Below, in pieces: positions 9,808 to 23,938 of a DNA stretch of 24,563 bases. Source of the stretch: a virus. The stretch is taken from positions 1-24,563 of IMG/VR virus record IMGVR_UViG_3300043331_002606; one strand, written 5' to 3'. Under the pieces are notes generated by a model, which made no database searches, had not been told where the DNA came from, and saw nothing but the letters and a program-made list of their open reading frames with translations. A program made the translations under genes and the position numbers. The stretch's first letter is position 1, and each line of letters begins with the position of its first letter.

Positions 9808-10148
9808 GTTGCCGCCACCGGCTCGTCGCCGTGCGCGGTGCAGTCGAGCTCGACCCCCTCGCGGCGGCCGATCTCGCGCACCGCCATGATCTCGAACGTC
9901 CTGCCGTCGAAGCCGACGCGGTCCTCGACCGTGACGGCCGACACCGCGTCCGACCAACGGATGCGGAAGGTCACCAGCGTGGCGCCGACGATCTGCTCGC
10001 GGGCGAACCGCTCGCTGCCGGTGTTCTCGCGCTTCTCCGCCCACACCGTGGCCAGCGTCGACCAGGTCAGCGTCTCCTGGCCGCGGTCGCTGAGCGTGAC
10101 GGTCTTGCGCTCGATGGTGATGCGCCGGTCGAGCTTGCCCGCCCTCAT
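9804..10148 (-). CDS. Head closure / head-tail adaptor protein (SPP1 gp16 family, 114 aa)
   Basis: Start chosen at 10148, where ATG overlaps the TGA of the upstream glycosyltransferase-like gene (ATGA). The five-codon longer start at 10163 is inside that gene. M-R-A-G-K-L-D-R-R-I-T-I-E-R is the standard opening of this family. W-S-T-L-A-T-V-W-A-E-K-R, F-R-I-R-W and R-V-G-F-D-G-R-T-F-E-I follow (usual pattern 'f.iRyr..i....ri...g..y.I'). It binds the connector ring and seals the capsid. It normally follows the gp6-like connector directly, but here the whole sugar-modification block (10145-16125) intervenes, with coupled translation at this junction. Confidence 0.9.
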   Translation of the reverse strand: MRAGKLDRRITIERKTVTLSDRGQETLTWSTLATVWAEKRENTGSERFAREQIVGATLVTFRIRWSDAVSAVTVEDRVGFDGRTFEIMAVREIGRREGVELDCTAHGDEPVAAT

Positions 10149-10936
10149 GCCAGCAGCCTCCACAGCGTGCCGTCGACCAGCTCGGCCTCGTTGAACTGGC
10201 TATAGGCCAGCGCGTTCAGCCACGGCTGCCGGTCGGGATAGACCGGATGCTCGATCAGCCTCAGGTCGGTGCGCCCGACCAGCGCCGCGGCCGAGGACGG
10301 ATCGACGAATACCGGGCAGCCGAGGACCACGCTCTCCACCGCGGCGATGCTGCCGTGCGAGACCAGCGCATGCGCGCCGGCGATGTCGTCCTGCAGCGTC
10401 CGCTTACTCTCCTTGTCGCGGATGACGAGCTGCCGGTCGGTCACCCTGGCCAGCGCGTCGATGGTGTCCGCGATCCAGCCCTCGGTGCGATGGAAGCGGC
10501 TGTAGGTGCGCGTCGGCGCGGCGATGACGATGTGGCGACCGCCGCGCTGCCAGGGCGAGACGTCGATGCGCAGCTCCTTCCACCTGTCGTCGGGCAGCGC
10601 GCGCAGCGCGCCGAGCTGAAAGCGGCCGCAGTGCCAGCGATAATATCCCCCGTTCTCGCCGCGCGGCAGGTGGGTGGCGAACACACGCCGGGCGTAGCCG
10701 CGATCCCAGTAGACCCATCGCCGCCCCCGCTTCACCCAGGCGTCGATCAGCGGCCGCAGCGCCGGGGTGCAGCCGACCACCGGAACGATCTCGTCGGGCA
10801 GCGCATCGAGCTGCGCCGGATCGTCCCTCACGACGCGGCCGATGTGGCGGCCGATGCGCTCGAACAGGTCGAGCTTGAAGCGCTTGAGACCCGGCGGGAT
10901 GAACAGCGCACACTGCGCCCGCTCTATTGCCGCCAC
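10145..10936 (-). CDS. GT-B / capsule-synthesis-like glycosyltransferase (about 263 aa)
   Basis: The frame contains no ATG in its credible part. The best start is GTG at 10936, overlapping the methyltransferase stop by 13 nt. The C-terminal half has I-A-A-P-T-R-T-Y-S-R-F-H, R-Q-L-V-I-R-D-K-E, then V-S-H-G-S-I-A-A-V-E-S-V-V-L-G-C-P-V-F-V-D. The latter is the pattern of GT-B enzymes and capsule polysaccharide proteins (KpsS/KpsC-like) in which a Ser/Asn-rich loop and a glutamate bind the nucleotide sugar. It ends A-Y-S-Q-F-N-E-A-E-L-V-D-G-T-L-W-R-L-L, a tail also seen in that group. The N-terminal Rossmann half is short. It is the last gene of the cassette and is coupled by ATGA to the head-closure gene. 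Donor and acceptor are unknown. Confidence 0.65.
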   Translation of the reverse strand: MAAIERAQCALFIPPGLKRFKLDLFERIGRHIGRVVRDDPAQLDALPDEIVPVVGCTPALRPLIDAWVKRGRRWVYWDRGYARRVFATHLPRGENGGYYRWHCGRFQLGALRALPDDRWKELRIDVSPWQRGGRHIVIAAPTRTYSRFHRTEGWIADTIDALARVTDRQLVIRDKESKRTLQDDIAGAHALVSHGSIAAVESVVLGCPVFVDPSSAAALVGRTDLRLIEHPVYPDRQPWLNALAYSQFNEAELVDGTLWRLLA

Positions 10937-11496
10937 AGCACGCCGATGCCGTTGTTGCGCTGCTCGCAGCTGAGCTCGACGTGGCGATGCTCCCCGCGCA
11001 GCCGTTGCCACAGCTCCGGCACGTCGATGCGCACCCCGCCGGTCCACTCCGGCGGCCGGGACCAGCCGATGTCGTGGAAGGCGACGATATGCGCCATCGG
11101 CCCGTAATTCTCCCAGTCGCGCGTCACGAACGGCAGCGTGTGGTTGGCGTCGATCAGCACCGCGTCGAACGGCGCCAGGCGCTCGACCATGGCGACGATC
11201 TCGACCGCCGTGCTGTCGCCCAGGATCAGGTGCGCCTCGAGCCCGCGCCCCCGCAGCGCCTCGATGCAGGCGCGCAGCGACACGCTCGACCGCGACCAGG
11301 CGCCGGTGCCGTGCGGCAGGTCGACCGCCACCACCCGTCCGCCGCGCGGCAGGAGCTGCCCTACCCGCCACAGCGTGCCGCCGAACTTGGCGCCGATCTC
11401 CAGGTAGCTGGCAATCCCCTCGCCGCGCAGCAGGTCGAGGAAGGCGGCGAGCTCCTCGCGGTTCTGCTGGATCTCCGTCTCGTAGGCCGCGCTCAT
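10924..11496 (-). CDS. Class I SAM-dependent methyltransferase (190 aa)
   Basis: ATG at 11496 overlaps the stop of the preceding glycosyltransferase (ATGA); longer frames upstream lie inside that gene. Motif I is S-Y-L-E-I-G-A-K-F-G-G-T-L (about residues 30-42), followed by V-V-A-V-D-L-P (motif II acidic end). D-A-V-L-I-D-A-N-H-T-L-P-F-V-T-R-D-W comes next and then A-F-H-D-I-G-W. This L-E-I-G...D-A-N-H...H-D arrangement is that of the Methyltransf_24 / cephalosporin-hydroxylase-like group, which often methylates sugars or small metabolites in glycan clusters. Substrate is inferred to be a glycan by context only. Confidence 0.75.
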   Translation of the reverse strand: MSAAYETEIQQNREELAAFLDLLRGEGIASYLEIGAKFGGTLWRVGQLLPRGGRVVAVDLPHGTGAWSRSSVSLRACIEALRGRGLEAHLILGDSTAVEIVAMVERLAPFDAVLIDANHTLPFVTRDWENYGPMAHIVAFHDIGWSRPPEWTGGVRIDVPELWQRLRGEHRHVELSCEQRNNGIGVLWRQ

Positions 11497-12134
11497 CGCC
11501 AGTGCTCCCGGACCCAAGGCAGATGCAGCAGCTGGTGCGGCTTCGGCGTGCCGTGCATGTAGCAGATGCACGCTCCCTGCAGGCCCTTGCGGCGCACGTC
11601 GTGCGCCTTGAGCGAGAGCACCCCACCCGCCAGCTGCCCGGGCCAGAGGTCGTCGAGCGGCTGCCAGGGGAAACGCCGCAGCCACTCCATGTCGTTCTCG
11701 CCGCTCCAGGCCTCGAAGATCCGCGATCCGATCCCCGGCGGCGACAGCACGACCGGGTTGATCAGCCGCTCCGGCCGGTAGGGATCGCGCGGGGCGGCGA
11801 TACGGTCGCCGCGCGCGCACCAGTCGGCGAGATGATCGACATTGCCGACGATCACCATGTCGAGCCCGCAGACGATCAGCGGCACGCGCCTGGCGTCGAG
11901 CCGGAACGGCTCGATCAGGCAGCCGTAGCCCGGCGTCGCCGTGCGCAGGCGCAGCTGCTCGACCCCGGCGCAGAGGTCACGCGGGCGGTCGGTGAAGCAG
12001 ACGAAACGGAATGGACGCGTCAGGTTGCGGGCGAAGCCGCGGTAGAGCCTCTCCACCCAGCTCTCGTCGTAGCAGCGCGAGAACGGCTGGCTGTGGTGGT
12101 TAGGCGCCCACAGGCAGCAGGCGATGTGCAGCAC
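11493..12134 (-). CDS. Small GT-A-like glycosyltransferase (213 aa)
   Basis: Starts M-L-H-I-A-C-C-L-W at 12134, overlapping the acetyltransferase stop by 35 nt. F-V-C-F-T-D-R-P (about residues 44-51) and P-L-I-V-C-G-L-D-M-V-I-V-G-N-V-D-H-L (about 85-102) parallel the nucleotide-sugar and D-x-D regions of GT8-type enzymes. The usual D-x-D is reduced to L-D-M, so metal binding may be altered. Later L-A-G-G-V-L-S-L-K and Y-M-H-G-T-P-K-P-H follow the G-x-x-x-F-N and K-P pattern near the active site. It is paralogous in layout to the product of 12642-13328 (both open M-L-H and have L-D-x-V-x-x-G). Function as a glycosyltransferase is likely; specificity unknown. Confidence 0.65.
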   Translation of the reverse strand: MLHIACCLWAPNHHSQPFSRCYDESWVERLYRGFARNLTRPFRFVCFTDRPRDLCAGVEQLRLRTATPGYGCLIEPFRLDARRVPLIVCGLDMVIVGNVDHLADWCARGDRIAAPRDPYRPERLINPVVLSPPGIGSRIFEAWSGENDMEWLRRFPWQPLDDLWPGQLAGGVLSLKAHDVRRKGLQGACICYMHGTPKPHQLLHLPWVREHWR

Positions 12135-12645
12135 GGACCCTCGCGATCGCCGTCTCGTTCACGATCTCGGTCAGCCGCCCGTCGCGTCCCCACAGGCAGC
12201 GCTCCGGCACGTCGGCGGTCACCACCGCTCCGGCGGCGACGAGCGCGCCGGCGCCGATGGTCAGCCCCGGCATGACGATGGCGCCGGCGCCGATCGAGGC
12301 GCCGTCCAGGACCTCGGTGACCACGATGCCGCCGGCGAGGATGGCGTCGAGGTCGAAGCCATCCTTGTGGGCGCGCGGCCAGCGGTCGTTGCAGAAGATC
12401 ACGTGCGGGCCGATGAACACCTCGGATCCGATGCGCATGCCGGGATCGACGAAGGCACCATGACTGACGATCGAGCGGTCGCCGATCTGCGAGGCATCGA
12501 CGATGGCGCAGGTGGCGATCCTGCAGTCGGCGCCGATCACGGCCTTGCGGATCACGCTGGCGAACTGCCACACCCTGCTGCGGGCGCCGATGGATGCGTT
12601 CTCCACGCAGGCGAGCGGATGCACGAAGGCGGAGCCGTCGATCAT
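12100..12645 (-). CDS. Left-handed beta-helix acetyltransferase, WlbB/WbpD-like (181 aa)
   Basis: The ATG at 12645 overlaps the upstream stop as ATGA and is preferred over a GTG two codons earlier. The whole chain is hexapeptide repeats of the left-handed beta-helix type: V-E-N-A-S-I-G-A, V-I-G-A-D-C-R-I, I-G-D-R-S-I-V-S, I-G-S-E-V-F-I-G-P, then S-I-G-A-G-A-I-V-M-P-G-L-T-I-G-A. The insertion F-C-N-D-R-W-P-R-A is characteristic of WbpD/WlbB-type UDP-amino-sugar N-acetyltransferases. It probably acetylates an amino sugar using acetyl-CoA in the cytoplasm. No aminotransferase or dehydrogenase of that pathway is present in the window, so it must use a host-made intermediate or a finished glycan. 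Confidence 0.82.
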   Translation of the reverse strand: MIDGSAFVHPLACVENASIGARSRVWQFASVIRKAVIGADCRIATCAIVDASQIGDRSIVSHGAFVDPGMRIGSEVFIGPHVIFCNDRWPRAHKDGFDLDAILAGGIVVTEVLDGASIGAGAIVMPGLTIGAGALVAAGAVVTADVPERCLWGRDGRLTEIVNETAIARVRAAHRLLPVGA

Positions 12646-13328
12646 GTGCACACCCAGTGCCGCTGCACCCAGGGCAGGGATGAGAACCTCGCCGGATCGC
12701 GCCAGCCCGGAAACACGACGAGCCGCGCGTCCTGTGGCAGGTCGTCGGCGTCAGGCCAGCCCGGCTTCTTGAAGGCGTAGACGCCGGAGCGGGGCCCGGC
12801 CTGCCAGCCGGCGGCGCCGGGGATCATGTGCGCGAGCCAGCCCTGGTCGTCGGGAAACTCGTGGTGCGGCAGCCTTGCCGCCGCCTCGAGCGAGAACGAC
12901 GACTGCACCTCGGCATGACGGCCGGCCCGCAGCATCCACAGCGAGCCGTTATACGGGCACGGGTTGGCGGCGTTGGCGCCCTGCAGGATGACGAAGGTCT
13001 CCGGCCGCAGGAACAGCGGGTCGAGCGGCCCGGTGACGACCACGTCGAGGTCGATGCAGACGATGCGCTCGCCGGCCAGGATGCGGTGACGCTCCTGCCA
13101 GGCCGGATCGAGCAGGCGCAGCCGCGCGAAGCATCCCCGCACTTGCGTGAGCGGCAGATCGGGCTCCGGCAGCGGGACGAGCTCGACGCCGGGAAACGTG
13201 CCCTGCCGGGTCGTGACGACGACGAGCCGGTGCTCCTGCTCGAGGTGCCGGCGCAGACCGGCGTGCAGCTTGCGCACGTGATCGGCACCGTACTTCTCAC
13301 CCCACCAGTATGTGACGACGTGCAGCAT
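12642..13328 (-). CDS. Small GT-A-like glycosyltransferase (228 aa)
   Basis: ATG at 13328, 30 nt after the methyltransferase stop. M-L-H-V-V-T-Y-W-W-G opens a Rossmann-like beta strand. Near residues 89-102, I-V-C-I-D-L-D-V-V-V-T-G-P-L carries the D-L-D (D-x-D) metal site of GT-A glycosyltransferases, flanked as in GT8 relatives. A later segment, C-P-Y-N-G-S-L-W-M-L, corresponds to the 'N-x-G' acceptor-loop strand; G-V-Y-A-F-K-K and V-V-F-P-G-W-R-D form the C-terminal H/D-G-x-x-K-P-like end. Comparable small transferases occur in phage genomes. Sugar specificity cannot be read from the sequence. Confidence 0.72.
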   Translation of the reverse strand: MLHVVTYWWGEKYGADHVRKLHAGLRRHLEQEHRLVVVTTRQGTFPGVELVPLPEPDLPLTQVRGCFARLRLLDPAWQERHRILAGERIVCIDLDVVVTGPLDPLFLRPETFVILQGANAANPCPYNGSLWMLRAGRHAEVQSSFSLEAAARLPHHEFPDDQGWLAHMIPGAAGWQAGPRSGVYAFKKPGWPDADDLPQDARLVVFPGWRDPARFSSLPWVQRHWVCT

Positions 13329-13358
13329 CGCGCTTCCGGGCGGCCGAGGTCGAGGCGA

Positions 13359-13934
13359 TCATGCATTGCGCTGCCAGACGGCACAGACGCCGAGGGTGAG
13401 CGACAGGTGCGAGGTGTGCACGCGCTTGAGCCCGAGCGGCCCGAACTCGCTGTCGATGGTGCGCATCTCCTGGTCGTTCTCCAGCGGCTTGTCGCTGGTT
13501 GCGCGCCAGGCGAACCACTTCCGCGTATGCTCGCCGAGCCAGAGCAGCAGGGCCCGCATGTCGGCGGGCGGCATCACCCGCTTGAGCTTGTGATAGGTGG
13601 CGAGCAGGAGCACGATGTCGTAACCGATGCCGCCGAACGGCGCCATCGCCTGCGGCCCCCTGGTGAGGTCCACCACCTCGAACCTGCTCTCGACGCTGCG
13701 CAGGTCGGCGAAGAGCTCCCGCGCGCAGGCGATGCCCTCGACGTAATTGTCGCAGCCGTGCACCAGCGTCGCGCCGTTGTTGGCGAGCTCGAACCCCACC
13801 AGGCCGCGGTTGCAGCCGACGTCCAGCACCGAGGCGCCGCGCGCGCGCAGGACCAGGTCGGTCATGCCGTCCATGCGCAGGTCGTGATAGCCGGCGACCC
13901 GGCGCATCAGCTTGTGCTCGGATTCGATGTTCAT
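13359..13934 (-). CDS. Class I SAM-dependent methyltransferase (191 aa)
   Basis: The ATG at 13934 overlaps the stop of the heptosyltransferase-like gene (ATGA); the longer upstream start is a shadow. The signature S-V-L-D-V-G-C-N-R-G-L-V-G-F-E (motif I, about residues 35-49) is clear, then H-G-C-D-N-Y (motif II) and D-I-V-L-L-L-A-T-Y-H-K-L (motif IV/V). W-F-A-W-R-A-T-S and a C-terminal beta-rich end (L-S-L-T-L-G-V-C-A-V-W) complete a normal-length fold. It most likely O- or N-methylates a sugar given its neighbours; this is inference from context. Small size and no extra domains argue against a DNA methyltransferase. Confidence 0.8.
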   Translation of the reverse strand: MNIESEHKLMRRVAGYHDLRMDGMTDLVLRARGASVLDVGCNRGLVGFELANNGATLVHGCDNYVEGIACARELFADLRSVESRFEVVDLTRGPQAMAPFGGIGYDIVLLLATYHKLKRVMPPADMRALLLWLGEHTRKWFAWRATSDKPLENDQEMRTIDSEFGPLGLKRVHTSHLSLTLGVCAVWQRNA

Positions 13935-14713
13935 GCCGCGAGCTTCTCCCGCACCGCGGCCTCGACCGTCTCCAGCTCGATCGCCAGCATCGCCCGCCGG
14001 CAGTGATCGCACGGCCGCAGCGAGCCGCAGAACTCGTCGCTGCCGGCGAGATTGGCGTGCATGTCGTATCCGGTGACCTGCGGCGGGATGAACCCGCCGA
14101 AAAGGACCACGCCGGAGACGCCCACCGCCGCGGCACCGTGATGCATGCCGCCCTCATGCCCGACATAGAGCCGCGCGGCGGCGAGCACCGCGAGCGCCTC
14201 GCGCAGCGAGCGAGCCGGGATCTGCCGCACCGGCAGGCGGACCGTGGCGCCGGGATAGCTGAACTGGCACACGTCATGGCCGCCGCGGCGGAGCCGCTGC
14301 GCAAGCTCGATCCAGCGAGCGGCCGGCCAGCGCTTGTTCGGCGAGGACGTCTTCCAGGCCGGAACGTTCGGCTCGAGCAGGATGAAGCCGCGGCCGTGCG
14401 GCGCCGCCGCGCGGCGCTCCACCTCGGCGAAGAACATCTCGCCCGGCTGCGGGCGGAAGCTCATGTTCCAGATCCACCGGTCGCGCACGCGATCGTGCCG
14501 GTTGTAGAGGCGGTTCCCCTTGTAGAAGGGCACCCACTCCAGGTGCGGCGCCTTCTCGGTGCCGGGCACCGCGATGTTGAGGTTGCGCTTGAAGATCGTC
14601 GGGCTGTTCTGGTCCCAGATGATCCTGCTGCCGTCGCCGAACGCGATCCTGACGCCCCGCTGCGCGGCGCCGCGCGCCATGCCGGTCGCCATGATGTTGT
14701 CGCCGAGACCCAT
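13931..14713 (-). CDS. Glycosyltransferase family 9 / heptosyltransferase-like protein (260 aa)
   Basis: The N terminus M-G-L-G-D-N-I-M-A-T-G-M-A is the G-L-G-D-x-x-M-A-T phosphate-loop motif of ADP-heptose:LPS heptosyltransferases, here placed at the very start of the protein. The middle has R-G-F-I-L-L-E-P-N-V-P, then S-P-N-K-R-W-P-A-A-R-W (the N-K-x-W-P...W motif), and A-A-R-L-Y-V-G-H-E-G-G-M-H-H-G-A-A-A-V-G (the GT9 G-x-D-x-G-x-x-H-x-A-A-A donor site). A Cys-rich end follows (C-G-S-L-R-P-C-D-H-C-R). It is about 60-90 residues shorter than typical heptosyltransferases. The preceding gene ends 12 nt upstream in the same frame. Probably transfers a sugar from a nucleotide donor; acceptor unknown. 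Confidence 0.82.
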   Translation of the reverse strand: MGLGDNIMATGMARGAAQRGVRIAFGDGSRIIWDQNSPTIFKRNLNIAVPGTEKAPHLEWVPFYKGNRLYNRHDRVRDRWIWNMSFRPQPGEMFFAEVERRAAAPHGRGFILLEPNVPAWKTSSPNKRWPAARWIELAQRLRRGGHDVCQFSYPGATVRLPVRQIPARSLREALAVLAAARLYVGHEGGMHHGAAAVGVSGVVLFGGFIPPQVTGYDMHANLAGSDEFCGSLRPCDHCRRAMLAIELETVEAAVREKLAA

Positions 14714-14725
14714 CGCCGGAGATGA

Positions 14726-15457
14726 TCAGGACGCCCAGCGCGTCAGCACGGCACGCCAATGGTCGGCGTAGGGCACGTCGCGGAAGCCCTCGAACCACGG
14801 GCCCCCTTCGGTGAAGTGAACCACCTGCGGGTCGTCCCCGGCATCGCTGTGCCCCGGCAGCCAGTTCCACACCGGGTCGAGCGCACCGATCTCCCCGTCG
14901 TCGAGCCAGCACAGGCGGTGCAGGTCGCGGCCCGGCAGCGTGTTGACCAGGTCCACGTCGAGCGCGGCATTGGCCGGGTGCGCCACGTTGAACGCCATCA
15001 TGCTCGACCAGTTCTTGCGCGGGTAGGCGCTCTGCGTCTGGCCGTCCATCTTCTGCGTCGCCGCCGGCGCGTAGCGATGCTGCACGCAGTAGAGCGCCTT
15101 GGCGTCGTCGAGCTGCGCGATCAGCGGGTTGAGACTGCCGCGCACCAGAACGTCGCAGTCCATGAACAGCGCCCAGGAGGCGGCGCGGGCGCCGTGCCGG
15201 CGCTCGAGCTCGGGAACCAGGAAACGCGAGATCGCGAACTCGGTGCTCATCGGGTGGGCGGAGATCACGTCGTAGAGCCGGCCGAGCCGGCGCTCGGTCG
15301 GGCGGGTGTAGAGCCCCTGCTCCTGCAGCTGCGGCAGCACCAGGCCGTGCACCGGCACGTGGCGGTGAAACTCGCGCAGGCTGTAGCGAGCCACCGCATA
15401 GGCCGCCGCCTCGCGCGGATCGAAGCCGATCCAGACCGACCAGGAGCGCCTCGTCAT
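14726..15457 (-). CDS. GT-A glycosyltransferase, GT8-like (243 aa)
   Basis: The start at 15457 (M-T-R-R-S-W-S-V-W-I-G-F-D-P-R-E) is 8 nt after the DUF115-like stop. I-G-F-D-P-R-E...A-Y-A-V begins a family of phage/bacterial transferases, and the metal site D-C-D (residues 100-102, in W-A-L-F-M-D-C-D-V-L) is intact. N-W-S-S-M-M-A-F-N (acceptor strand), D-P-V-W-N-W-L-P-G-H and V-V-H-F-T-E-G-G-P-W-F (terminal H-x-x-G-G loop) complete the usual GT8 pattern. All catalytic positions look preserved, so this is probably the most clearly functional transferase of the block. Confidence 0.82.
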   Translation of the reverse strand: MTRRSWSVWIGFDPREAAAYAVARYSLREFHRHVPVHGLVLPQLQEQGLYTRPTERRLGRLYDVISAHPMSTEFAISRFLVPELERRHGARAASWALFMDCDVLVRGSLNPLIAQLDDAKALYCVQHRYAPAATQKMDGQTQSAYPRKNWSSMMAFNVAHPANAALDVDLVNTLPGRDLHRLCWLDDGEIGALDPVWNWLPGHSDAGDDPQVVHFTEGGPWFEGFRDVPYADHWRAVLTRWAS

Positions 15458-15465
15458 GCAGAAGC

Positions 15466-16125
15466 CTACAGTCCCCAGCCGCGCAGCGCCTGCTCGATGC
15501 TGGCGCGGCGGAAGCATTTGACGTCGCTCGAGGGCGAGGCGTTGACCACGTCGACGCCGAGCGAGGCGAGCACGTCGGCGCTCCCCTCGAGCGCGCGCAC
15601 CCAGCGGCGGAAGCTGGTGCGGTCGGGGTTGCGCCGGTCCTTGCCGACGTTGCGCCCGTACCAGTGCAGGCCGGAACGGTCGTGCATGTCGAAACCGATC
15701 AGCAGGATGCCCGTGCAGCCGAACTGCACCGCGAGGTTGAGCGCCTGGAAGCCGCTGTTGCCGCCAGAGCCGATGACACCCGGCTCCTCGCAGACGATGG
15801 CGTCGAGATCGACCTTGCGGATCTCGATCTTGATGACGCCGGGAAACTCGGACGCGGCCTTGCGGTCGTAGCAGAGCTTGAGCCCGGGAAACTGCGGCAG
15901 CCCCTTACGCTCGCGCCACCACGGCGCCTCGCAGCCGTACACCACCTCGGCCCACGGGCAGAGGTCGACGTTCGACTTGACCGCGAGCACGTGGATGCGC
16001 CCGCGGAGCACCGAGAGATCCTGCTGCTTGACCGACGGGCCCGAGGCGACGACCGCCACGCACTCGCCGCGCCAGTCGGGCCACCACTCGAACCTCCCGG
16101 GCCCGAGCGCGGCCGCCCGGTTCAT
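15466..16125 (-). CDS. DUF115-like / sialyltransferase-like phage protein (219 aa)
   Basis: The ATG at 16125 overlaps the connector stop (ATGA). The N-terminal V-A-V-V-A-S-G-P-S-V is the nucleotide-binding G-x-G/S-P-S loop of the DUF115 and GT42 sialyltransferase-like superfamily. G-G-N-S-G-F-Q-A-L-N-L-A-V-Q-F-G near the centre, followed by I-L-L-I-G-F-D-M-H, is the second signature. H-W-Y-G-R-N...F-R-R-W-V (the histidine that ends the active site in this group) and V-V-N-A-S-P follow. Members can be glycosyltransferases or 6-hydroxymethylpterin pyrophosphokinase-like. Among the transferases downstream, a CMP-sugar or nucleotide-sugar-dependent role is the best guess. It is the first gene of the cassette. 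Confidence 0.72.
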   Translation of the reverse strand: MNRAAALGPGRFEWWPDWRGECVAVVASGPSVKQQDLSVLRGRIHVLAVKSNVDLCPWAEVVYGCEAPWWRERKGLPQFPGLKLCYDRKAASEFPGVIKIEIRKVDLDAIVCEEPGVIGSGGNSGFQALNLAVQFGCTGILLIGFDMHDRSGLHWYGRNVGKDRRNPDRTSFRRWVRALEGSADVLASLGVDVVNASPSSDVKCFRRASIEQALRGWGL

Positions 16126-16719: not shown

Positions 16720-17436
16720 TCACCACTTGCTGCCGTCGGGGCCGAGCTGCGTCAGATCGCGGCCGGGACGGCCGGCAGGTCCCTGCGGACCTGGTGCGCC
16801 GTCCTTGCCGTCGCGTCCGTCGCGGCCGCGCTTGACCGCCAGGCGCCAGTCGGAGCCCTTGTCCTCGGGCTTGCTGGTGGTGTCCGCCTGCGCGATCCAC
16901 AGCGAGCCGCCGTGGCTCACCGCGTCGCCGCGGGCATAGGCGCCCTGGCGCCAGACGCCGCGATCGAGCAGGAACGGCACCACGTGCTCGAAACGCTTGA
17001 CCGTCTCTCCGCGCGTGAAGACCACGGCGAAGGTGCGCTCGCCGTCATACTCATGGGTCAGCTCGTCGAAGCCGAGGCCGTCGGCGCCGGCCTTGCCCGG
17101 CGCGCCATCCTTGCCGTCGAGGCCATCCTTGCCGGCAGCGCCGTCGCGCCCGGGCAGGCCGTCGCGGCCGTCACGGCCTGGCGCGCCCTCCTCTCCCTGC
17201 GGACCGGCGGGACCCGGCTCTCCCGCCTTGAGATCCTTCAGCGCCGCGGCGAGCTGCAGCCGGTCCTGCTCGATCTTCTCCCGCAGCTTGACATTCTCCA
17301 GCCTGAGCTCGGCGATGGCCGCCCGGCTCTCGGCCTTGAGCAGCTCGATTTCCTGGCGCGCATGAAATCGCCACTCGGAAACCACCTGCCCCAGGACTTG
17401 CGCAACCGTGTCAAGCTCGAAGGGCACGGGCAGCAT
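16720..17436 (-). CDS. Collagen-like virion-associated protein with CBM5/12-like domain (238 aa)
   Basis: The preferred ATG is at 17436, overlapping the last 26 nt of the portal gene. A start 35 codons upstream (17541) would lie in the portal coding sequence. Residues 15-70 form a charged coiled coil (E-I-E-L-L-K-A-E-S-R-A-A-I-A-E-L-R-L-E). There are then 17 consecutive Gly-X-Y triplets (about 73-123) and a second block of about 8 triplets near 202-225. Between them a folded domain has R-T-F-A-V-V-F-T-R-G and G-V-W-R-Q-G-A-Y-A-R-G-D-A-V-S-H-G-G-S-L-W. This is the W-x-x-x-x-x-Y-x-x-G-D-x-V-x-x-x-G-x-x-W pattern of CBM5/12-type sugar-binding modules. It would trimerise via coiled coil and collagen helix. 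Position after the portal suggests a head- or neck-associated fibre. Confidence 0.82.
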   Translation of the reverse strand: MLPVPFELDTVAQVLGQVVSEWRFHARQEIELLKAESRAAIAELRLENVKLREKIEQDRLQLAAALKDLKAGEPGPAGPQGEEGAPGRDGRDGLPGRDGAAGKDGLDGKDGAPGKAGADGLGFDELTHEYDGERTFAVVFTRGETVKRFEHVVPFLLDRGVWRQGAYARGDAVSHGGSLWIAQADTTSKPEDKGSDWRLAVKRGRDGRDGKDGAPGPQGPAGRPGRDLTQLGPDGSKW

Positions 17437-18841
17437 CAAACGCGGCGGCCCATTTGAAGGTGGCGTCGATGAATCGTTGCCGCTGCTGCTCAGCGCCCTG
17501 TCCATCATCGCCCTCCGCCGCGGCCGCATCGTCGTCGTCATCGTCCGGCAACGGCGCCGCGCGCGCAGTGCCGAATGGATCGTCCTTGGCGTCGCGCTTG
17601 GCGAGCGCGGCCAGGCTGAAATTCTGCTGCTGCAGGTAGACCTGGTCGCCGCCGGTCACCGGCTTCAGGTCGAACCAGGAGCGCGCCTCGTCCGGCGTGT
17701 AGAGGCCGCCGCGGATGCCGTCGGTCGCGGTCTTGACCTTGGTGGCGGTATCCATGCGCAGCAGATCCTGCAGGTCGAACTCGGTGCCGAGCGTGCGGTT
17801 CGGCACCTCGGGGAGGCCGAGCCCCTCGTCGAGGACGAGCTCGATCGACTCGATCAGCCCCTGCAGGCACTGCGAGTAGTACTGCTGATTGAGCGCCTCG
17901 ATGTTGTTGTAGGTCGGCATCTTGCCGACGCCGATCATGTAGGGCGGCACGTGGAAGCAGGAGCACACGGTCTCCGCCGTCCACTTGAGCTGCTCGATCA
18001 GCTGCGCGTCGTCGGCGTTGACGCTCATCGCCTCGTATTTGAGGCCGTCGCCGAGCACCGCGACCTTGCCGACGTTCTCGCCGGTGTAGCTCTTCTCCCA
18101 TTGCTCCTTGAGACGCCTGGCGGTGTCGTCGCTGATGGCGCCTGGCGCGGAGAGCACGCCGCCGGGCTTGCTGCCGTTGGCGAAGAAGCTCGCGCTGTTG
18201 CGCTGGATGGCGAGGCCCTGCACCGCGGCGAGCGCGCAGGCGGTGATCGGCGAGACGCCGCACAGTGGATGATACAGCGGCACCATCACGTCGTGCATGA
18301 TCTCGCTCGCCGGCGCCAGCACGCTGTCGTCGCTGATGCCGGAGAGGCTGTCGGCGCGCAGGCGGTAGAATACGTCGCCGTCGGGCGCCACGTAGGCCTT
18401 GGTGCGCAGCGGGTCGAGCACGTACAGCGCGGTGACCACGCCGCGGCCGTCGCGCTCCTTGAGCACGTAGGTGTTGCCGTGGGTGAGCTTGGAGACGAGC
18501 CAGGACTCGAAGAACTTGACCCGGTTCTGGTAGCGGTTGGGCTTGCGCATCACCGGCGAGAATGCGGCCGACGTGGTCTCGCTCCAGATGCCGTCGCGGT
18601 CCTGCTCGACCAGGCGCAGCCGCAGCTTGGCGATGTCGGAGGCGATGAGCGTCACGCAGGCATAGACCGCAGAGTAGGCGAGCACGTTCTCGGCGCGGAT
18701 CTCCATGTTGCGCTGCCAGGCGCCGGGGAACGGCTCGCGGATGACCGGCCACCAGCCGTCCGACCAGCCGCCCCAGCTCGGCGGCTGCGTCGGCGTCGGC
18801 GAGGCCTTGCGCAGGGTGATCTCGTAGCCGAGCAGGCGCAT
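17411..18841 (-). CDS. Portal protein, HK97 family (476 aa)
   Basis: The start M-R-L-L-G-Y-E-I-T-L at 18841 is 1 nt after the previous stop; a longer in-frame ATG at 19012 lies inside that gene. V-Y-A-C-V-T-L-I-A-S-D-I-A-K-L (about residues 60-75), N-S-A-S-F-F-A-N-G-S-K-P-G-G-V-L and F-H-V-P-P-Y-M-I-G (about 320) are the three classic HK97-portal signatures. N-N-I-E-A-L-N-Q-Q-Y-Y, L-Y-T-P-D-E-A-R-S and a low-complexity D-D-D-D-D-D stretch near the end follow. Length is normal. It forms the dodecameric DNA channel. Here it follows the capsid gene instead of preceding it. Confidence 0.95.
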   Translation of the reverse strand: MRLLGYEITLRKASPTPTQPPSWGGWSDGWWPVIREPFPGAWQRNMEIRAENVLAYSAVYACVTLIASDIAKLRLRLVEQDRDGIWSETTSAAFSPVMRKPNRYQNRVKFFESWLVSKLTHGNTYVLKERDGRGVVTALYVLDPLRTKAYVAPDGDVFYRLRADSLSGISDDSVLAPASEIMHDVMVPLYHPLCGVSPITACALAAVQGLAIQRNSASFFANGSKPGGVLSAPGAISDDTARRLKEQWEKSYTGENVGKVAVLGDGLKYEAMSVNADDAQLIEQLKWTAETVCSCFHVPPYMIGVGKMPTYNNIEALNQQYYSQCLQGLIESIELVLDEGLGLPEVPNRTLGTEFDLQDLLRMDTATKVKTATDGIRGGLYTPDEARSWFDLKPVTGGDQVYLQQQNFSLAALAKRDAKDDPFGTARAAPLPDDDDDDAAAAEGDDGQGAEQQRQRFIDATFKWAAAFDAARALRA

Positions 18842-18842
18842 C

Positions 18843-19130
18843 TCAGTCCTCGGCCACAACGTCGCGGCGCTGGTAGCGGCGCCGCGGCGCCCCCTCGCCG
18901 GCGAAGCCGGAGAGCGACGGCTGCCAGGCCTCGACGCTCTCGCCGGCCGCGGCGCGGACCGGCTCAGCAGGAGCCGCCGCCGGCTTGGCCTCGGGCTCCT
19001 TGTCCTTGGCATCGACGGCGCGGCGCGCCGCCTTCAGCACACGGCCGTGCTTCTCGGCGGCCTCGAACGTGTCGCCAGGCTTCACCAGCTTGCCGGCGTA
19101 TCTGAACTCGCGCTGCGCGACGAGCTTCAT
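18843..19130 (-). CDS. Small conserved phage protein upstream of portal (95 aa)
   Basis: ATG at 19130 with TAGGAGC about 8 nt upstream. M-K-L-V-A-Q-R-E-F-R-Y-A-G-K-L-V-K-P-G-D-T-F-E-A matches the opening of short phage proteins (DUF7302-like, from memory) that start 'MKV.A...FRY.G..V..GD.FEA' and end in disordered Ala/Pro/Glu-rich tails. Here the ordered part ends near residue 45, followed by K-D-K-E-P-E-A-K-P-A-A-A-P. The stop is 1 nt before the portal start. It may be a decoration or head-completion accessory; function unknown. Confidence 0.72.
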   Translation of the reverse strand: MKLVAQREFRYAGKLVKPGDTFEAAEKHGRVLKAARRAVDAKDKEPEAKPAAAPAEPVRAAAGESVEAWQPSLSGFAGEGAPRRRYQRRDVVAED

Positions 19131-19154: not shown

Positions 19155-20102
19155 TCAGTAGGCGATGCAGTCCTCGCACAGCGTGCCACGCACGTCCTTG
19201 CGCAGGTGCGCCTCGCGCAAGGCCACGAACGGCGGCGAGTTCCAGGCGCTCATGAAATCCGTCCCGGTCAGGTCGCCCATGGTCCAGTTGGCGCGGGCGT
19301 CGAAGCAGCACGCCGAGAGGTTGCCGTCCGCGGTCACATGCCCCTCGGTGAAGGCGGACCAGCACGGCAGCGGCTCGCGCAGGGCGTCGAGCCGGCCCTG
19401 GTTGCCCGCGGTCGGGCGATAGCCCAGCTCGGCCTCGCGCTGGGTGGCGAAGGCGCCCATGGAGTAGAGCGGCAGCCAGTAGTGCTGATCGACGTAGGGC
19501 AGCACGCGCTCGGCAAGCAGCAGCTCCATGCGCTCCTGCTGCTCGCCGTCGTAGCGGATCGACGAGGCGTAGAGGCTGGTGGTGTGGCCGCGCTCGAGCC
19601 GCATGTGCCACACTGCCGCGATGTTACCCAGGGCGACCTCGTAGAGCTTGGGCGACACCGCCATCAACTTGGCGAACTGCTCCGGGTCGGCGGCGTTGAC
19701 GGACCATTTCAACGAGTCGAGCCCGGCGGCCATGCAGCGCTCGACCCATTCGACCTTGGCCAGGGAGGCGTTGGAGGTCAGGAACACGTAGGGCATGCCG
19801 AGGTCGCGTTTGAGATGCTCGATGCAGCGCACCAGCAGCCTCGGCGCCATGAAGGATTCGCCGAGATAGAAGACCCCGATCTCCTCGACGCCGGCCGCGT
19901 GCATCTCGCGGGTGGTCCGCTGGAACAGACCGAAGTCCATGTCGCGGCGCGGCTGCACCTCGCGGGTGCGCAGGGCGCAGAAGCCGCAACGGTAGTTGCA
20001 GCGCGGCGACACCTCGATCTTGACGCTCCTCGGCGCCGGCAGCACCGGGCGCAGGCGATCCGGGGCGATCCGGGTGATGGCGTCGATGCGATCGGTGATC
20101 AT
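19155..20102 (-). CDS. Radical SAM / SPASM-domain protein (315 aa)
   Basis: The ATG at 20102 is chosen because upstream in-frame codons overlap the terminator and the capsid gene. A GAGGAGG site lies about 16 nt upstream, rather far. S-P-R-C-N-Y-R-C-G-F-C carries the C-x-x-x-C-x-x-C cluster (C35, C39, C42) for the SAM-binding 4Fe-4S. G-V-F-Y-L-G-E-S-F and F-L-T-S-N-A-S-L are the following beta-strand motifs. The C terminus has C-W-S-A-F, D-G-N-L-S-A-C-C-F-D, a G-D-L...F-M-S-A-W-N-S segment and L-C-E-D-C, i.e. an SPASM auxiliary iron-sulfur domain, normal for peptide or glycan modification enzymes. Such a gene in a phage head operon is unusual. Substrate not evident; candidates are virion proteins or glycans of the nearby cassette. 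Confidence 0.88.
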   Translation of the reverse strand: MITDRIDAITRIAPDRLRPVLPAPRSVKIEVSPRCNYRCGFCALRTREVQPRRDMDFGLFQRTTREMHAAGVEEIGVFYLGESFMAPRLLVRCIEHLKRDLGMPYVFLTSNASLAKVEWVERCMAAGLDSLKWSVNAADPEQFAKLMAVSPKLYEVALGNIAAVWHMRLERGHTTSLYASSIRYDGEQQERMELLLAERVLPYVDQHYWLPLYSMGAFATQREAELGYRPTAGNQGRLDALREPLPCWSAFTEGHVTADGNLSACCFDARANWTMGDLTGTDFMSAWNSPPFVALREAHLRKDVRGTLCEDCIAY

Positions 20103-20149: not shown

Positions 20150-20178
20150 AAAAAGGGGCCGGGAGTGACCCCGACCCC
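20150..20178 (-). terminator. Intrinsic (Rho-independent) terminator after the capsid gene
   Basis: On the minus strand the sequence is a 9-bp GC stem, GGGGTCGGG pairing with CCCGGCCCC (one U-G wobble), a 6-nt loop GTCACT, and a run of five T. Stem positions are 20170-20178 and 20155-20163; the T-run is 20154-20150. It sits 25 nt after the capsid stop and 47 nt before the radical SAM start, so it would separate the capsid transcript from the downstream genes at least partly. Confidence 0.85.
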
Positions 20179-20203: not shown

Positions 20204-22201
20204 TCAGCTGTCGGCGTACTTGGCGTACTGGATGAAGCCGACCGCATCGGCGCGGCGCTTCTGCCAGGAGACCCACCGCTCGGCCTTGATGGCGATCATG
20301 TTGTGCTGCCACAGGCTGATGAGCGTGGTCGACGCGCTGATCGGAGAGTCCGGCGCGCTGTCCATGTTGAGCGAGGCCTCGCGGCTCGCGTCGATCGACA
20401 CCTCGCCGTCGTCGGCGAGCATGATCTCCGGCGCCTTCACCAGGATGATCGGGTAGCCGTCGGTGGGCGACGAGCCGGTCGCCGGCAGCGCTTCCGAGGT
20501 GATGACCGGCAGCCCGCCGAGGCGGCCGCCGTTGACATCGATGTTGGGGAATTCCGCCTGCCCCAACGCATTCGTCATCAGCGAGATGGCGAATGCCTGC
20601 TGCTGGGTCATCAGCAGAACGGCGCCGGCCATCGACAGGTTGCCGTCGAGGAAGCTGTTGACCAGCGTCTTGAGGTCGGCCCGCAGCGCGTCCGGCGTGG
20701 CGCCGGTGGCGGTGACCGGGGTCACGCCGTTGGTGATCGAGGCCGGGCGCACGCCCGCCTGCGCGTCGGCCGCCGGATCGACGAAGGCGATGTCCATGAA
20801 CTTGACGATCTCGGCGATGAGATTGTCACGCACCAGCATCTCGGCCGACGGGTTCGACAGCCGCACCAGCTCCTCGGTCATCGGCACGATGCCGGCGATC
20901 TTGTGGTGCTCGAGGGTCACCGTATCGAAGGCGAGCGAGGAGACCGGCTTGACCTTGCCCTCGCCGATCCAGTTGACGGTCGCGCCGCCGGTCTGCCGGG
21001 GAACCTTGATCTTGAACGGGACCCGGCGCAGGCCCGGGATGCGGCCGATGATGGTGAGCGGCTGCAGCAGCTCGATGAACTCGTTCTGCAGGTTCTGGTA
21101 GACGACCAGCGGGGCGGCCCAGGTGGTGTCGGTCGTGGTGCCGGCTTCGACAGCCGCCTTGGCGAACATCTCGTAGTCGGTGGTGCCGACCATCATCTGC
21201 GCCTTGAGCACCTCGGCGACCTCCGGGGTGTCCTGCCAGCGCTTGGCGATCTCGTGCGCCTGCATGATGTTGCCGCGGGCGTTGGCGAGCGCGATCACGT
21301 AGCGGGTGAAGCGCGTTCCCTTGGGCAGCTGCTTGGCGAGCACCTGCACCGAGACGCCGCCGCGCAGCTCGGACGCCCTGGACGGCGTGTCGACCTTCTC
21401 GACGGCGATCGCCGCCGCCTTGTTGGCCTGCTCGAGCGATCGCAGCCGCTTCAGGTGCTGGTCGATCCTCTGCACGTCCTCCTCGAGCGTGTCGTACTCG
21501 TCGCTCTCGGCCTGGTCGAGGGTGACGCCCTCGTCGGCGGACTTCTGCATCAGCTCGTTCATGCGCGCGGTCTTGGCGGCGCGCGTCGCCTCGAAGGCGG
21601 AGATCTGCTCCGCAATGGTCCTCGGCATTGTCCTCGCGTCCTTCGGCGCTGGTGACTTTGCGTTGCGTGGTCCCGTGGCGCCGGGGCGTTTGCGCTCGAC
21701 GGGCGAGAGCGTGCGGCCGGACGCGGCCCGGATCTCGTCGTCGATCGACTTGATGGTCTCGATGGTGGCCTCGGCGTTCGCCGGGATGGTCACCAGCGAC
21801 AGCTCGAGCACCTCGGTCTCGCGGAAGCGGATGCCGCCGTCGTCCATGTAGCTGTGGTCGAGGCTGCGGAAGCCGATGGAGACGCCGCGCACCAGCCCCA
21901 GCTTGACCGACTGCCAGGCCTCGTCGATGCGCTCCTTGAGCGCGCCCGGCTCGTCGACCGTCGGCATGCGGGCGGAGAAGGCGACGCCGTCCTCGGTCGG
22001 CTTGTCGAAGCGCACCGTGCCGATCGGCTTGTCGCTCCTGTGCTGCCAGAGAAGCGGCAGCGGGTTGGTGTATTTCACGCCGAGCGGCTCGACGATGTCC
22101 CCGATGCGATCCGGCGTTGGCGTCGTGGCCATGCCCGTGATGACCCGCAGGTCATCGTTGACCGACTTGATCTGCAGCAGGCTGTAAGCGCGCTTGAGCA
22201 T
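20204..22201 (-). CDS. Fused prohead protease and major capsid protein, HK97-type (665 aa)
   Basis: ATG at 22201 has GGGAGG 6-7 nt upstream. Residues 1-150 are the HK97 prohead (S78) protease: L-W-Q-H-R-S-D-K-P-I-G-T-V with catalytic-type H54, R-G-V-S-I-G-F-R with S108, and E-V-L-E-L-S-L-V-T-I-P-A-N-A-E-A with E133 as the third acidic position. A linker (150-192) leads to M-P-R-T-I-A-E-Q-I and a coiled-coil delta domain (about 195-270). The HK97-fold capsid follows, e.g. F-T-R-Y-V-I-A-L-A, W-I-G-E-G-K, M-T-E-E-L-V-R, D-N-L-I-A-E-I and A-E-R-W-V-S-W-Q-K-R. Here protease and capsid are one gene, as in some other prophages. The internal ATG at 21628 (M192) could yield a capsid-only product. It lies directly after the large terminase, before the portal. 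Confidence 0.94.
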   Translation of the reverse strand: MLKRAYSLLQIKSVNDDLRVITGMATTPTPDRIGDIVEPLGVKYTNPLPLLWQHRSDKPIGTVRFDKPTEDGVAFSARMPTVDEPGALKERIDEAWQSVKLGLVRGVSIGFRSLDHSYMDDGGIRFRETEVLELSLVTIPANAEATIETIKSIDDEIRAASGRTLSPVERKRPGATGPRNAKSPAPKDARTMPRTIAEQISAFEATRAAKTARMNELMQKSADEGVTLDQAESDEYDTLEEDVQRIDQHLKRLRSLEQANKAAAIAVEKVDTPSRASELRGGVSVQVLAKQLPKGTRFTRYVIALANARGNIMQAHEIAKRWQDTPEVAEVLKAQMMVGTTDYEMFAKAAVEAGTTTDTTWAAPLVVYQNLQNEFIELLQPLTIIGRIPGLRRVPFKIKVPRQTGGATVNWIGEGKVKPVSSLAFDTVTLEHHKIAGIVPMTEELVRLSNPSAEMLVRDNLIAEIVKFMDIAFVDPAADAQAGVRPASITNGVTPVTATGATPDALRADLKTLVNSFLDGNLSMAGAVLLMTQQQAFAISLMTNALGQAEFPNIDVNGGRLGGLPVITSEALPATGSSPTDGYPIILVKAPEIMLADDGEVSIDASREASLNMDSAPDSPISASTTLISLWQHNMIAIKAERWVSWQKRRADAVGFIQYAKYADS

Positions 22202-22222: not shown

Positions 22223-23938
22223 TCACACGAACAGCATCTGAAACCTGCGCTCGACCGGGGCGCCGCGGGCGGCGATGCCGATCGCCATGACCAGCGCGAC
22301 GATCAGGTCGATGCGGATCGACGAGCGGTCCTTCGCCGGCTTGATGTTGTCGGCGGCGTCGCTCTCCACCGCCACCGCCTGGGCGTGGCGGCGCAGCAGC
22401 GGATGGCCGCCGTGGTCGAAGCCGTTGGCCATGACCAGGCGCTCGAGCTCCTTGGCCGGCGCCGACATCGAGGCGAAGCCCTGCCCGAACAGCACCACGG
22501 GCAGGCCTTCCTGCTGCAGCTTCACCGCGGTCTCGGTGGCGTTCCAGCGGTCGATGGCAAGCCCGCCCTGCCCCGCCTCGCGGTCCTTCTCGCCGGCGAA
22601 CGCGATCTTGAATCGCTCGGCGTCGCGGAAGATCTGCTCCTGGATGAAGGCGTAGTCGACGACGTTGCCGGGCGTGGTGAGCAGCGCGCCCTCGGCGACC
22701 AGGCGGTCATAGGGCACGCGGTCGCGCTTGGCGTGCGCCTTGACCAGGTCGGCGGGCTTGAACGCGCGCACCAGCACGGCGGGGCGCGGCAGGCCCTCCT
22801 GGACCGGAAACCACCAGGCGAGACCGGAGAGGTCCGTGGTCGAGGAGAGGTCGAGCCCACCGTAGCAGGTCTTGCGCTCGAGCCTCGCCTCGAGCTCGCG
22901 CCAGGGCGTGGCGCCGATGCAGTGGTCCCAGCCGTAGCGGTTGCCCTCGTCGTCGAGCGCATCGAGCGGCAGCCACTTGACCGCGGTCTCGGTCCAGGTG
23001 TTGAGCCGATAGCGGCGGAAGTCGTTCTCCAGCCGCGGCAGCTGGCGGGCGCGCTTGAAGTCGGCGAGGAAGGCGTCGGTCTTGACGGTGCGGCCGAAGT
23101 TCGGGTTGGCCTTGCGCCAGGTCGTCTCCACGGTCCAGTCGTCGTCGGGGTCCGGCGCGAAGATCAGCACCAGCGTCTCGGGATCGTCGATCTCGCCGGC
23201 GGCGATCGCCTGGCATTCCTTGAACACCTCCTCGCCGTGGCTCCCTTTCTGCCCGGCGGTCGAGATCAGGAACTCGAGCGGCTGCCGGCGCGCGGCGGCA
23301 CTGTCGTGGACGTAGGTGTAGAGGTCGCCGTTCGGCCACTCGTGGATCTCGTCGCCGATCAGCCCCGACATGGACAGGCCGTGCTTGCCCTTGGGCTTGC
23401 CGGAGAGCGGGCGGAACGAGGCGTTGAGCGCCGGGCAGTAGATCGATTCCTTCAGGCATTCGAGCCGCACGGCGAGGCTCGGCGAGCGCACCGCCATGGA
23501 CGATGCCTTGGCGAAAACGATCGACGCCTGGTCCTTCTCCGCGGCGATGGAGAAGACCTGGCCGCCGATCTCGGCGTCGCCGAGCAGCACCAAGAGCGCG
23601 ATGCCGGCGGCGAGCTCGGTCTTGCCGTTCTTGCGCGCAATCCAGATGAAGGCGCGGCGGTAGCGCCGCGTGCCGTCGGCGCGCTTCCACCCGAACAGCG
23701 GTCGGACGATGTCGTGCTCCTGGAAGTCCTCGAGCACGAACGGGCGGCCCGCCCATTCGCCCTCGGTGAAGACGAGATGCTCGGGAAAGAACGCCGCCGC
23801 CTTGTCCGCGGTGCTCTCGTCGTACCAGTAGGCGCCGTCACGCCAGTGCGCACCGTCCCAGGTGGCGGCCGGGGTGCGGCGCAGCGCGGGCGGCAGCGGC
23901 GGCGCTGCCGGCGCGGCGACGATCGGGGAGACCTGCAT
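22223..23938 (-). CDS. Terminase large subunit (571 aa)
   Basis: Starts at 23938, 3 nt after the small subunit stop. F-I-W-I-A-R-K-N-G-K-T-E at residues 97-108 is the terminase Walker A (A-R-K-N-G-K-T). L-I-G-D-E-I-H-E at 193-200 is Walker B with the catalytic glutamate. T-C-Y-G-G-L-D-L-S-S-T-T-D-L starts the RNase H-like nuclease, with the first metal aspartate near residue 363. D-R-W-N-A-T near the C-terminal third and S-S-I-R-I-D-L-I-V-A-L at the end complete the nuclease pattern. It is the ATP-driven packaging motor and headful/cos nuclease of HK97-type phages. Length is normal and all motifs are intact. Confidence 0.96.
   Translation of the reverse strand: MQVSPIVAAPAAPPLPPALRRTPAATWDGAHWRDGAYWYDESTADKAAAFFPEHLVFTEGEWAGRPFVLEDFQEHDIVRPLFGWKRADGTRRYRRAFIWIARKNGKTELAAGIALLVLLGDAEIGGQVFSIAAEKDQASIVFAKASSMAVRSPSLAVRLECLKESIYCPALNASFRPLSGKPKGKHGLSMSGLIGDEIHEWPNGDLYTYVHDSAAARRQPLEFLISTAGQKGSHGEEVFKECQAIAAGEIDDPETLVLIFAPDPDDDWTVETTWRKANPNFGRTVKTDAFLADFKRARQLPRLENDFRRYRLNTWTETAVKWLPLDALDDEGNRYGWDHCIGATPWRELEARLERKTCYGGLDLSSTTDLSGLAWWFPVQEGLPRPAVLVRAFKPADLVKAHAKRDRVPYDRLVAEGALLTTPGNVVDYAFIQEQIFRDAERFKIAFAGEKDREAGQGGLAIDRWNATETAVKLQQEGLPVVLFGQGFASMSAPAKELERLVMANGFDHGGHPLLRRHAQAVAVESDAADNIKPAKDRSSIRIDLIVALVMAIGIAARGAPVERRFQMLFV

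Follow-up and report, generated by a model that had tools for sequence, protein, structure and literature searches.

The window, i.e., the whole stretch of DNA analysed here, is a 24,563-bp viral contig of about 70% GC in which every late gene lies on the minus strand. Genes were called with a codon-scored caller, by which two opposite-strand ORFs at 12828–14725 are still miscalled. The head region comprises the following features:

22223–23938, minus strand: putative large terminase, 571 aa, named by position and inference
20204–22201, minus strand: fusion of prohead protease and HK97-type major capsid protein, 665 aa
20155–20178, minus strand: intrinsic terminator in the gap between the capsid and radical SAM genes, GGGGTCGGGG-TCAC-TCCCGGCCCC, with a 10-pair stem and T5
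19155–20102, minus strand: radical SAM/Twitch-SPASM enzyme, 315 aa, with C35-C39-C42 for the SAM cluster and C247, C265 (C266), C309 and C312 for the predicted auxiliary cluster
18843–19130, minus strand: 95-aa protein, DUF7210-like (E 1e-5, a weak match just under the Pfam cut-off)
17411–18841, minus strand: HK97-type portal protein
16720–17541 (likely start 17436), minus strand: collagen-like protein

The 571-aa gene gives a 29% tblastn match to the gene in the TerL position of L036 (L-numbers label the compared loci), with which the gene order is shared. The stem of the terminator is also present in the predicted fold, the z-score of the whole region being only -1.07, and the shuffled region gives 0.2 terminators on both strands together. 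The terminator at 20178–20155 and the gene order confirm what an earlier note on this DNA had described, namely that the radical SAM gene follows the capsid terminator and precedes the 95-aa protein and the portal. The capsid-portal interval revealed no promoter-like site, so that the gene is likely expressed by read-through. Elsewhere in the window, positions 2591–4909 encode a tail-tip-like protein that ends in a long glycine-rich stretch (G runs) and weakly matches the phage adhesin Gp38.

The radical SAM ORF (20102–19155, minus strand) is complete and uninterrupted, and its ATG start is supported by the N-terminus MITxRIDAITxI, which is kept across 36 aligned family sequences. The 315-aa product matches the Pfam models Radical_SAM (PF04055; E 1.9e-11, 44.9 bits against a gathering cut-off of 29.5) and SPASM (PF13186; E 5.9e-11, 42.9 bits, exceeding the gathering cut-off) and contains the motif CNYRCGFC, i.e., C35xxxC39xxC42, whose three cysteines are invariant in the 36 aligned members; the CxxxCxxC motif and a score past the gathering cut-off place it in the radical SAM superfamily. 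The ORF, the Pfam matches and the alignment bear out the complete enzyme with this motif reported previously between capsid and portal. Its composition (GC 0.684, GC3 0.940) is like that of its neighbours and, together with the depth of the family, rules out a recent random cargo gene, an origin named beforehand as one that would speak against a role in the virion. On sequence grounds, the gene is predicted to encode an active-looking Twitch-type radical SAM enzyme.

Full SPASM domains have seven cysteines, arranged as CX9-15GX4C..CX2CX5CX3C..C, and two auxiliary clusters (PMC6231123), while Twitch is a truncated SPASM with one auxiliary cluster (PMC6231123, PMC9012708). The only conserved cysteines in the C-terminal region of the window enzyme are C247, C265, C266, C309 and C312, those of the auxiliary cluster being invariant in an alignment of 36 diverse members; this set falls short of the seven cysteines of SPASM sensu stricto and points to one auxiliary cluster, so that the C-terminal domain with its predicted cluster fits a Twitch-type SPASM. 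The SPASM-type cysteines proposed earlier are therefore retained with regard to the PF13186 match and the cluster cysteines but are not of the seven-cysteine kind, and the term should read Twitch.

When a profile of the Twitch region was compared with the PDB, BtrN was the sole meaningful sequence match, weak and limited to this domain (E 0.006). In the alignment C265 falls on C187 of BtrN, C312 on C235 and C309 at C232, and C247 sits where the fourth BtrN ligand would fall; the spacing C247-X17-C265 would mirror C169-X17-C187, C169 presumably being the upstream ligand of the BtrN cluster. The butirosin dehydrogenase BtrN (PDB 4M7S/4M7T) resembles the window enzyme in having a radical SAM core plus Twitch and in its auxiliary cysteine spacing; in contrast, the fold-level identity is 12%, the lengths differ (about 250 versus 315 aa) and the window is devoid of butirosin/aminocyclitol genes. 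Dehydrogenases of the BtrN type remove two electrons from a hydroxyl of a cyclitol or sugar. BtrN itself is a Twitch enzyme oxidising an aminocyclitol, in which the four-Cys cluster is probably the electron acceptor (PMC9012708, PMC6231123). Function could not be derived from the fold because many radical SAM enzymes are tied among the whole-fold matches (SuiB at the top, viperin, DesII, MoaA and EpeE, with BtrN also significant), and the nearest predicted viral structures to the model of the window enzyme are at most 18% identical.

Radical SAM subfamily profiles gave no named subfamily: there is no PHROG for the window enzyme, and its scores stay under the cut-offs of all 23 NCBIfam families compared. 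Viperin (TIGR04278; E 1.7e-9, 37.1 bits versus a cut-off of 450) and MoaA (TIGR02666; E 3.3e-10, 39.4 bits versus 284) were rejected by their NCBIfam equivalog or exception cut-offs, the likeness to both being limited to the radical SAM core. Searches with tblastn at E 1e-5 gave no matches among 50,697 records of cultured phages, and plasmid matches are merely 20–30% identical. IMG/VR yielded 74 further members from environmental viral contigs with 48–73% identity, as well as two distant matches; these homologues and the invariance of the cluster cysteines in the aligned set place the family far beyond chance. GTDB genomes yielded 168 homologues, 80 of which were retained, mostly from Betaproteobacteria MAGs; the distribution in bacteria is patchy, with 16 of 399 genomes positive in the order of Azoarcus L1K30. 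In a tree of 153 rows the window pairs with the phage locus L002 (SH-aLRT 88), and a mainly betaproteobacterial clade of 62 rows stands beside the two (SH-aLRT 90); with midpoint rooting this clade falls within the phage diversity, at moderate support and with an unsure root. Two viral contigs share an identical enzyme with a MAG labelled Myxococcales or Euryarchaeota (L042 = L153; L047 = L155); phage contigs are binned into MAGs, which makes the MAG host labels unreliable. A Gallionella MAG contig (L157) has the enzyme, a GT8 gene and a tape-measure homologue (38% identity) within 10 kb and is possibly a prophage, providing a host lead.

The glycan cassette that had been noted 3 kb downstream does begin at 16125, 3.0 kb from the radical SAM gene, and extends to 10145:

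15466–16125, minus strand: sialyltransferase-annotated/MptE-like protein, cassette start (PHROG 4603, E 2.4e-36)
14726–15457, minus strand: GT8-like glycosyltransferase with DxD and KNWSS motifs
13931–14713, minus strand: GT9 family (heptosyltransferase-like) glycosyltransferase
13359–14012, minus strand: class I methyltransferase (weak Pfam matches)
12642–13328, minus strand: glycosyltransferase (PHROG 1962)
12100–12645, minus strand: left-handed beta-helix (hexapeptide) acyltransferase-like protein
11493–12134, minus strand: glycosyltransferase (PHROG 1962, E 2e-34)
10924–11496, minus strand: Methyltransf_24 methyltransferase
10145–10936, minus strand: unnamed 263-aa protein, cassette end, conserved in other radical SAM cassettes (cluster 8)

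From the packing of the genes, we infer that cassette and head genes are co-transcribed; the gene order in the window and its relatives agrees with that of phage virion-glycosylation cassettes, where glycosyltransferases are co-transcribed with head genes. The window radical SAM gene lies outside the contiguous cassette, which counts against its being a cassette member. In L002, however, it is located inside a homologous cassette with the order sialyltransferase-like, GT8, radical SAM, GT9, and in L036 and L146, which share the protease-capsid, portal and collagen-like genes with the window, it is found among the glycan genes downstream of the portal; L073, cut within the radical SAM gene, agrees with this latter arrangement. 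L160, of all loci the nearest to the window by its cassette, has capsid, portal, GT8, GT9 and methyltransferase genes as well as subsequent cassette genes with 54–68% identity, but the radical SAM gene is absent throughout its 15.5-kb contig. Its capsid-portal gap (1582–2512) contains a 66-aa ORF, a partial repeat of the end of this ORF and a minus-strand ORF, suggesting that the gap is an accessory-gene site; these ORFs have no Pfam match, and the reading of the small one as a known phage accessory gene was dropped. Given the in-cassette position in L002, L036 and L146 and the lack of the gene in L160, the window gene appears, by this comparison of gene orders, to belong to the cassette and to have moved into the gap between capsid and portal.

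Linkage was scored in 75 viral loci with HMMs from neighbour clusters: a glycan gene is present within 5 kb in 61 loci, a GT8-like gene in 50 and a head gene in 55. In half of the 14 loci devoid of a glycan gene, the enzyme lies in the first 500 bp of the available sequence, so that one flank is missing in these seven. The family of the window GT8-like protein is the commonest direct neighbour of the radical SAM family; GT8 is directly adjacent in 28 of 49 clusters formed at 80% identity (11 upstream and 17 downstream), and its side relative to the enzyme switches five times on the tree. The carriers span at least four head modules (HK97, P22-like, SU10-like and Terminase_6 type), and the gaps flanking the enzyme have medians of 2 and 9 nt, 4-nt overlaps being frequent. 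GDP-mannose dehydratase/epimerase-like and DegT aminotransferase genes occur just upstream of GT8 and the enzyme in L046–L057, L005, L012 and L016, forming a fuller sugar-making cassette in some carriers. In the reverse search, the 80 best GT8 loci all lack the radical SAM enzyme within about 6 kb, only a weak 27% match being present in L192, so the enzyme is an accessory to a far commoner glycosyltransferase.

Among the 80 retained bacterial homologues, a glycan gene was detected within 9 kb in 17 and none in the other 63. The enzyme is found beside a type IV pilin, a TPR protein, a TPR-GT61 protein, an epimerase and GT8 in L103 (Azoarcus sp. L1K30); beside flagellin, FliD, a TPR glycosyltransferase-like gene and GT8 in L088; with PilB/PilC-like genes, a pseudopilin motif and GT8 in L084 and L123; and with GT8, a sugar isomerase and two ABC transporters in L098. 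A conserved EQGxGD domain, which from its sequence looks like a GT-B glycosyltransferase, is common to the neighbouring TPR proteins. Some bacterial copies, a minority, are therefore located in islands of pilin/flagellin glycosylation type. Most have FNR/CRP, ccoNOQP, universal stress protein, nitronate monooxygenase, HemN, NrdD, U32 peptidase or Nar neighbours, the cco and Nar names being assigned by sequence inspection. In particular, FNR/CRP, universal stress protein, nitronate monooxygenase, ccoNOQP or HemN genes accompany the betaproteobacterial copies L080, L092, L106, L110, L113–L117, L129, L130, L138 and L141, and NrdD and U32 peptidase lie beside the enzyme in L086 and L089, which makes for a conserved anaerobic setting of the family. 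A second radical SAM paralogue, 39–51% identical, is found directly upstream in L086 (3–872), L101 (9075–9947) and L109 (8928–9860). The glycan-free bacterial copies and their anaerobic neighbours indicate that the reaction of the family may not be glycan-specific.

The idea of a virion-modification system put forward in the earlier note is partly supported by the frequency of glycan and head genes around the viral copies and by the in-cassette position in relatives, though not as a constant partnership with the cassette: homologues do not always travel with the same glycan genes, as seen from L160, from the GT8 loci and from the glycan-free bacterial copies, the last of which partly realise the case, named there as one that would refute the idea, of homologues unlinked to phage structural or glycan genes.

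The presence of the enzyme beside a glycosyltransferase and head genes in dozens of unrelated phages suggests that it probably alters a virion-decorating sugar. We give about an even chance to its being an accessory enzyme that modifies a sugar as part of a cassette for virion (or surface-protein) glycosylation tied to the head operon, for which we infer the sugar, the reaction and the target. A sugar substrate is suggested by head-protein families that vary while the enzyme is conserved, by the lack of a recognition-element (RRE) domain or precursor gene and by the glycosyltransferase as constant partner. Peptides are the substrates of many SPASM/Twitch enzymes (PMC9012708), SuiB heads the fold matches and the window gene lies between capsid and portal, all of which would agree with direct modification of a structural protein in the manner of a RiPP maturase, such as a crosslink, a C-alpha epimerisation or a residue oxidation of the capsid or collagen-like protein. 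This is nevertheless improbable: the radical SAM core begins after only about 20 residues, which excludes an RRE domain, in most loci the short gaps could not accommodate a gene for a peptide precursor, the enzyme stays 48–77% identical across carriers whose head proteins vary by family, and no NCBIfam RiPP-maturase cut-off is reached. On these grounds a RiPP maturase, and with it the peptide or structural-protein crosslinking offered earlier as an option, is disfavoured, as is the collagen-like protein as a general target, since it was detected in only a few loci, most of which have an HK97-type head module.

It is also unlikely, to a somewhat lesser degree, that the cassette including the radical SAM enzyme alters a host surface glycan (LPS, O-antigen or capsule) and not the virion, for instance blocking superinfection; pelagimyophage GT8 glycosyltransferases have been so interpreted (PMC7029224) and the window GT9 is heptosyltransferase-like, but in many unrelated phages the genes belong to the late head operon and run in one direction with the portal, terminase and adaptor genes, with little space between them, and several bacterial copies lie with pilin and flagellin genes. 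Little probability is likewise assigned to an auxiliary metabolic gene of anaerobic metabolism that benefits the host, its proximity to glycan genes reflecting a shared accessory-gene site. Most bacterial homologues do reside among genes of anaerobic respiration and O2-independent pathways, and the capsid-portal gap of L160 is filled by other ORFs devoid of Pfam matches; against this, GT8 is repeatedly adjacent to the enzyme, now upstream and now downstream, with five switches on the tree, anaerobic genes are absent from the conserved neighbour clusters examined in phage members, and the island members L103, L084, L088 and L098 are among the bacterial copies best placed as relatives of the phage forms. 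Confidence in the sugar reading is moderate mainly because of the anaerobic-gene context of most bacterial copies.

If the enzyme does act on a sugar, the 5'-deoxyadenosyl radical would remove a hydrogen from a nucleotide sugar, or from a sugar already in the glycan, and the auxiliary cluster, fully cysteine-ligated, would accept the second electron, by analogy with the aminocyclitol dehydrogenase BtrN, with the generation of an oxidised, epimerised or deoxygenated sugar. The GT8-like and other glycosyltransferases, the methyltransferases and the hexapeptide transferase would then build the modified sugar into a virion-protein glycan. More tentatively, virion glycans may contain a radical-SAM-modified sugar, with an exchangeable radical SAM plus GT8 module also used for bacterial flagellin and pilin glycosylation.

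Precedents exist for phage radical SAM genes in the vicinity of glycosyltransferases. In UC3 (WD0613), encoded in the Undecim cluster of phage WO, a glycosyltransferase is fused to a radical SAM domain (PMC9203015); by description, both cases join a radical SAM domain and a glycosyltransferase in a prophage-associated glycan-type island, but UC3 is a single fusion protein from a Wolbachia island of 11 genes, whereas the window has a stand-alone Twitch enzyme in a head operon. The hypervariable region of pelagimyophages has GT8 glycosyltransferases and radical SAM cassettes (PMC7029224) and is similar, by description, as a phage region rich in GT8 that also has radical SAM genes; that region serves host recognition near the tail fibres, in contrast to the head operon of the window. 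Mycobacteriophage virions are glycosylated by phage-encoded glycosyltransferases (Freeman et al. 2023, cited in PMC13313380), with other glycosyltransferases and hosts and, as far as this citing source relates, no radical SAM component. In the literature covered, outside which most subscription papers lie, no paper was found that connects radical SAM enzymes with phage head glycosylation, the WO and pelagimyophage cases being the only precedents of the wider kind, and no prior description was found of a Twitch family tied to head operons via a GT8 partner.

Few phages are known to glycosylate their virions, and radical enzymes, which are sensitive to oxygen, are no established part of this process. 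The recurrence of the enzyme with GT8 across head types and in pilin and flagellin islands makes it possible to test whether radical chemistry yields unusual sugars on virions or surface proteins; if this is true, radical chemistry would be a step common to the glycosylation of surface filaments and capsids.
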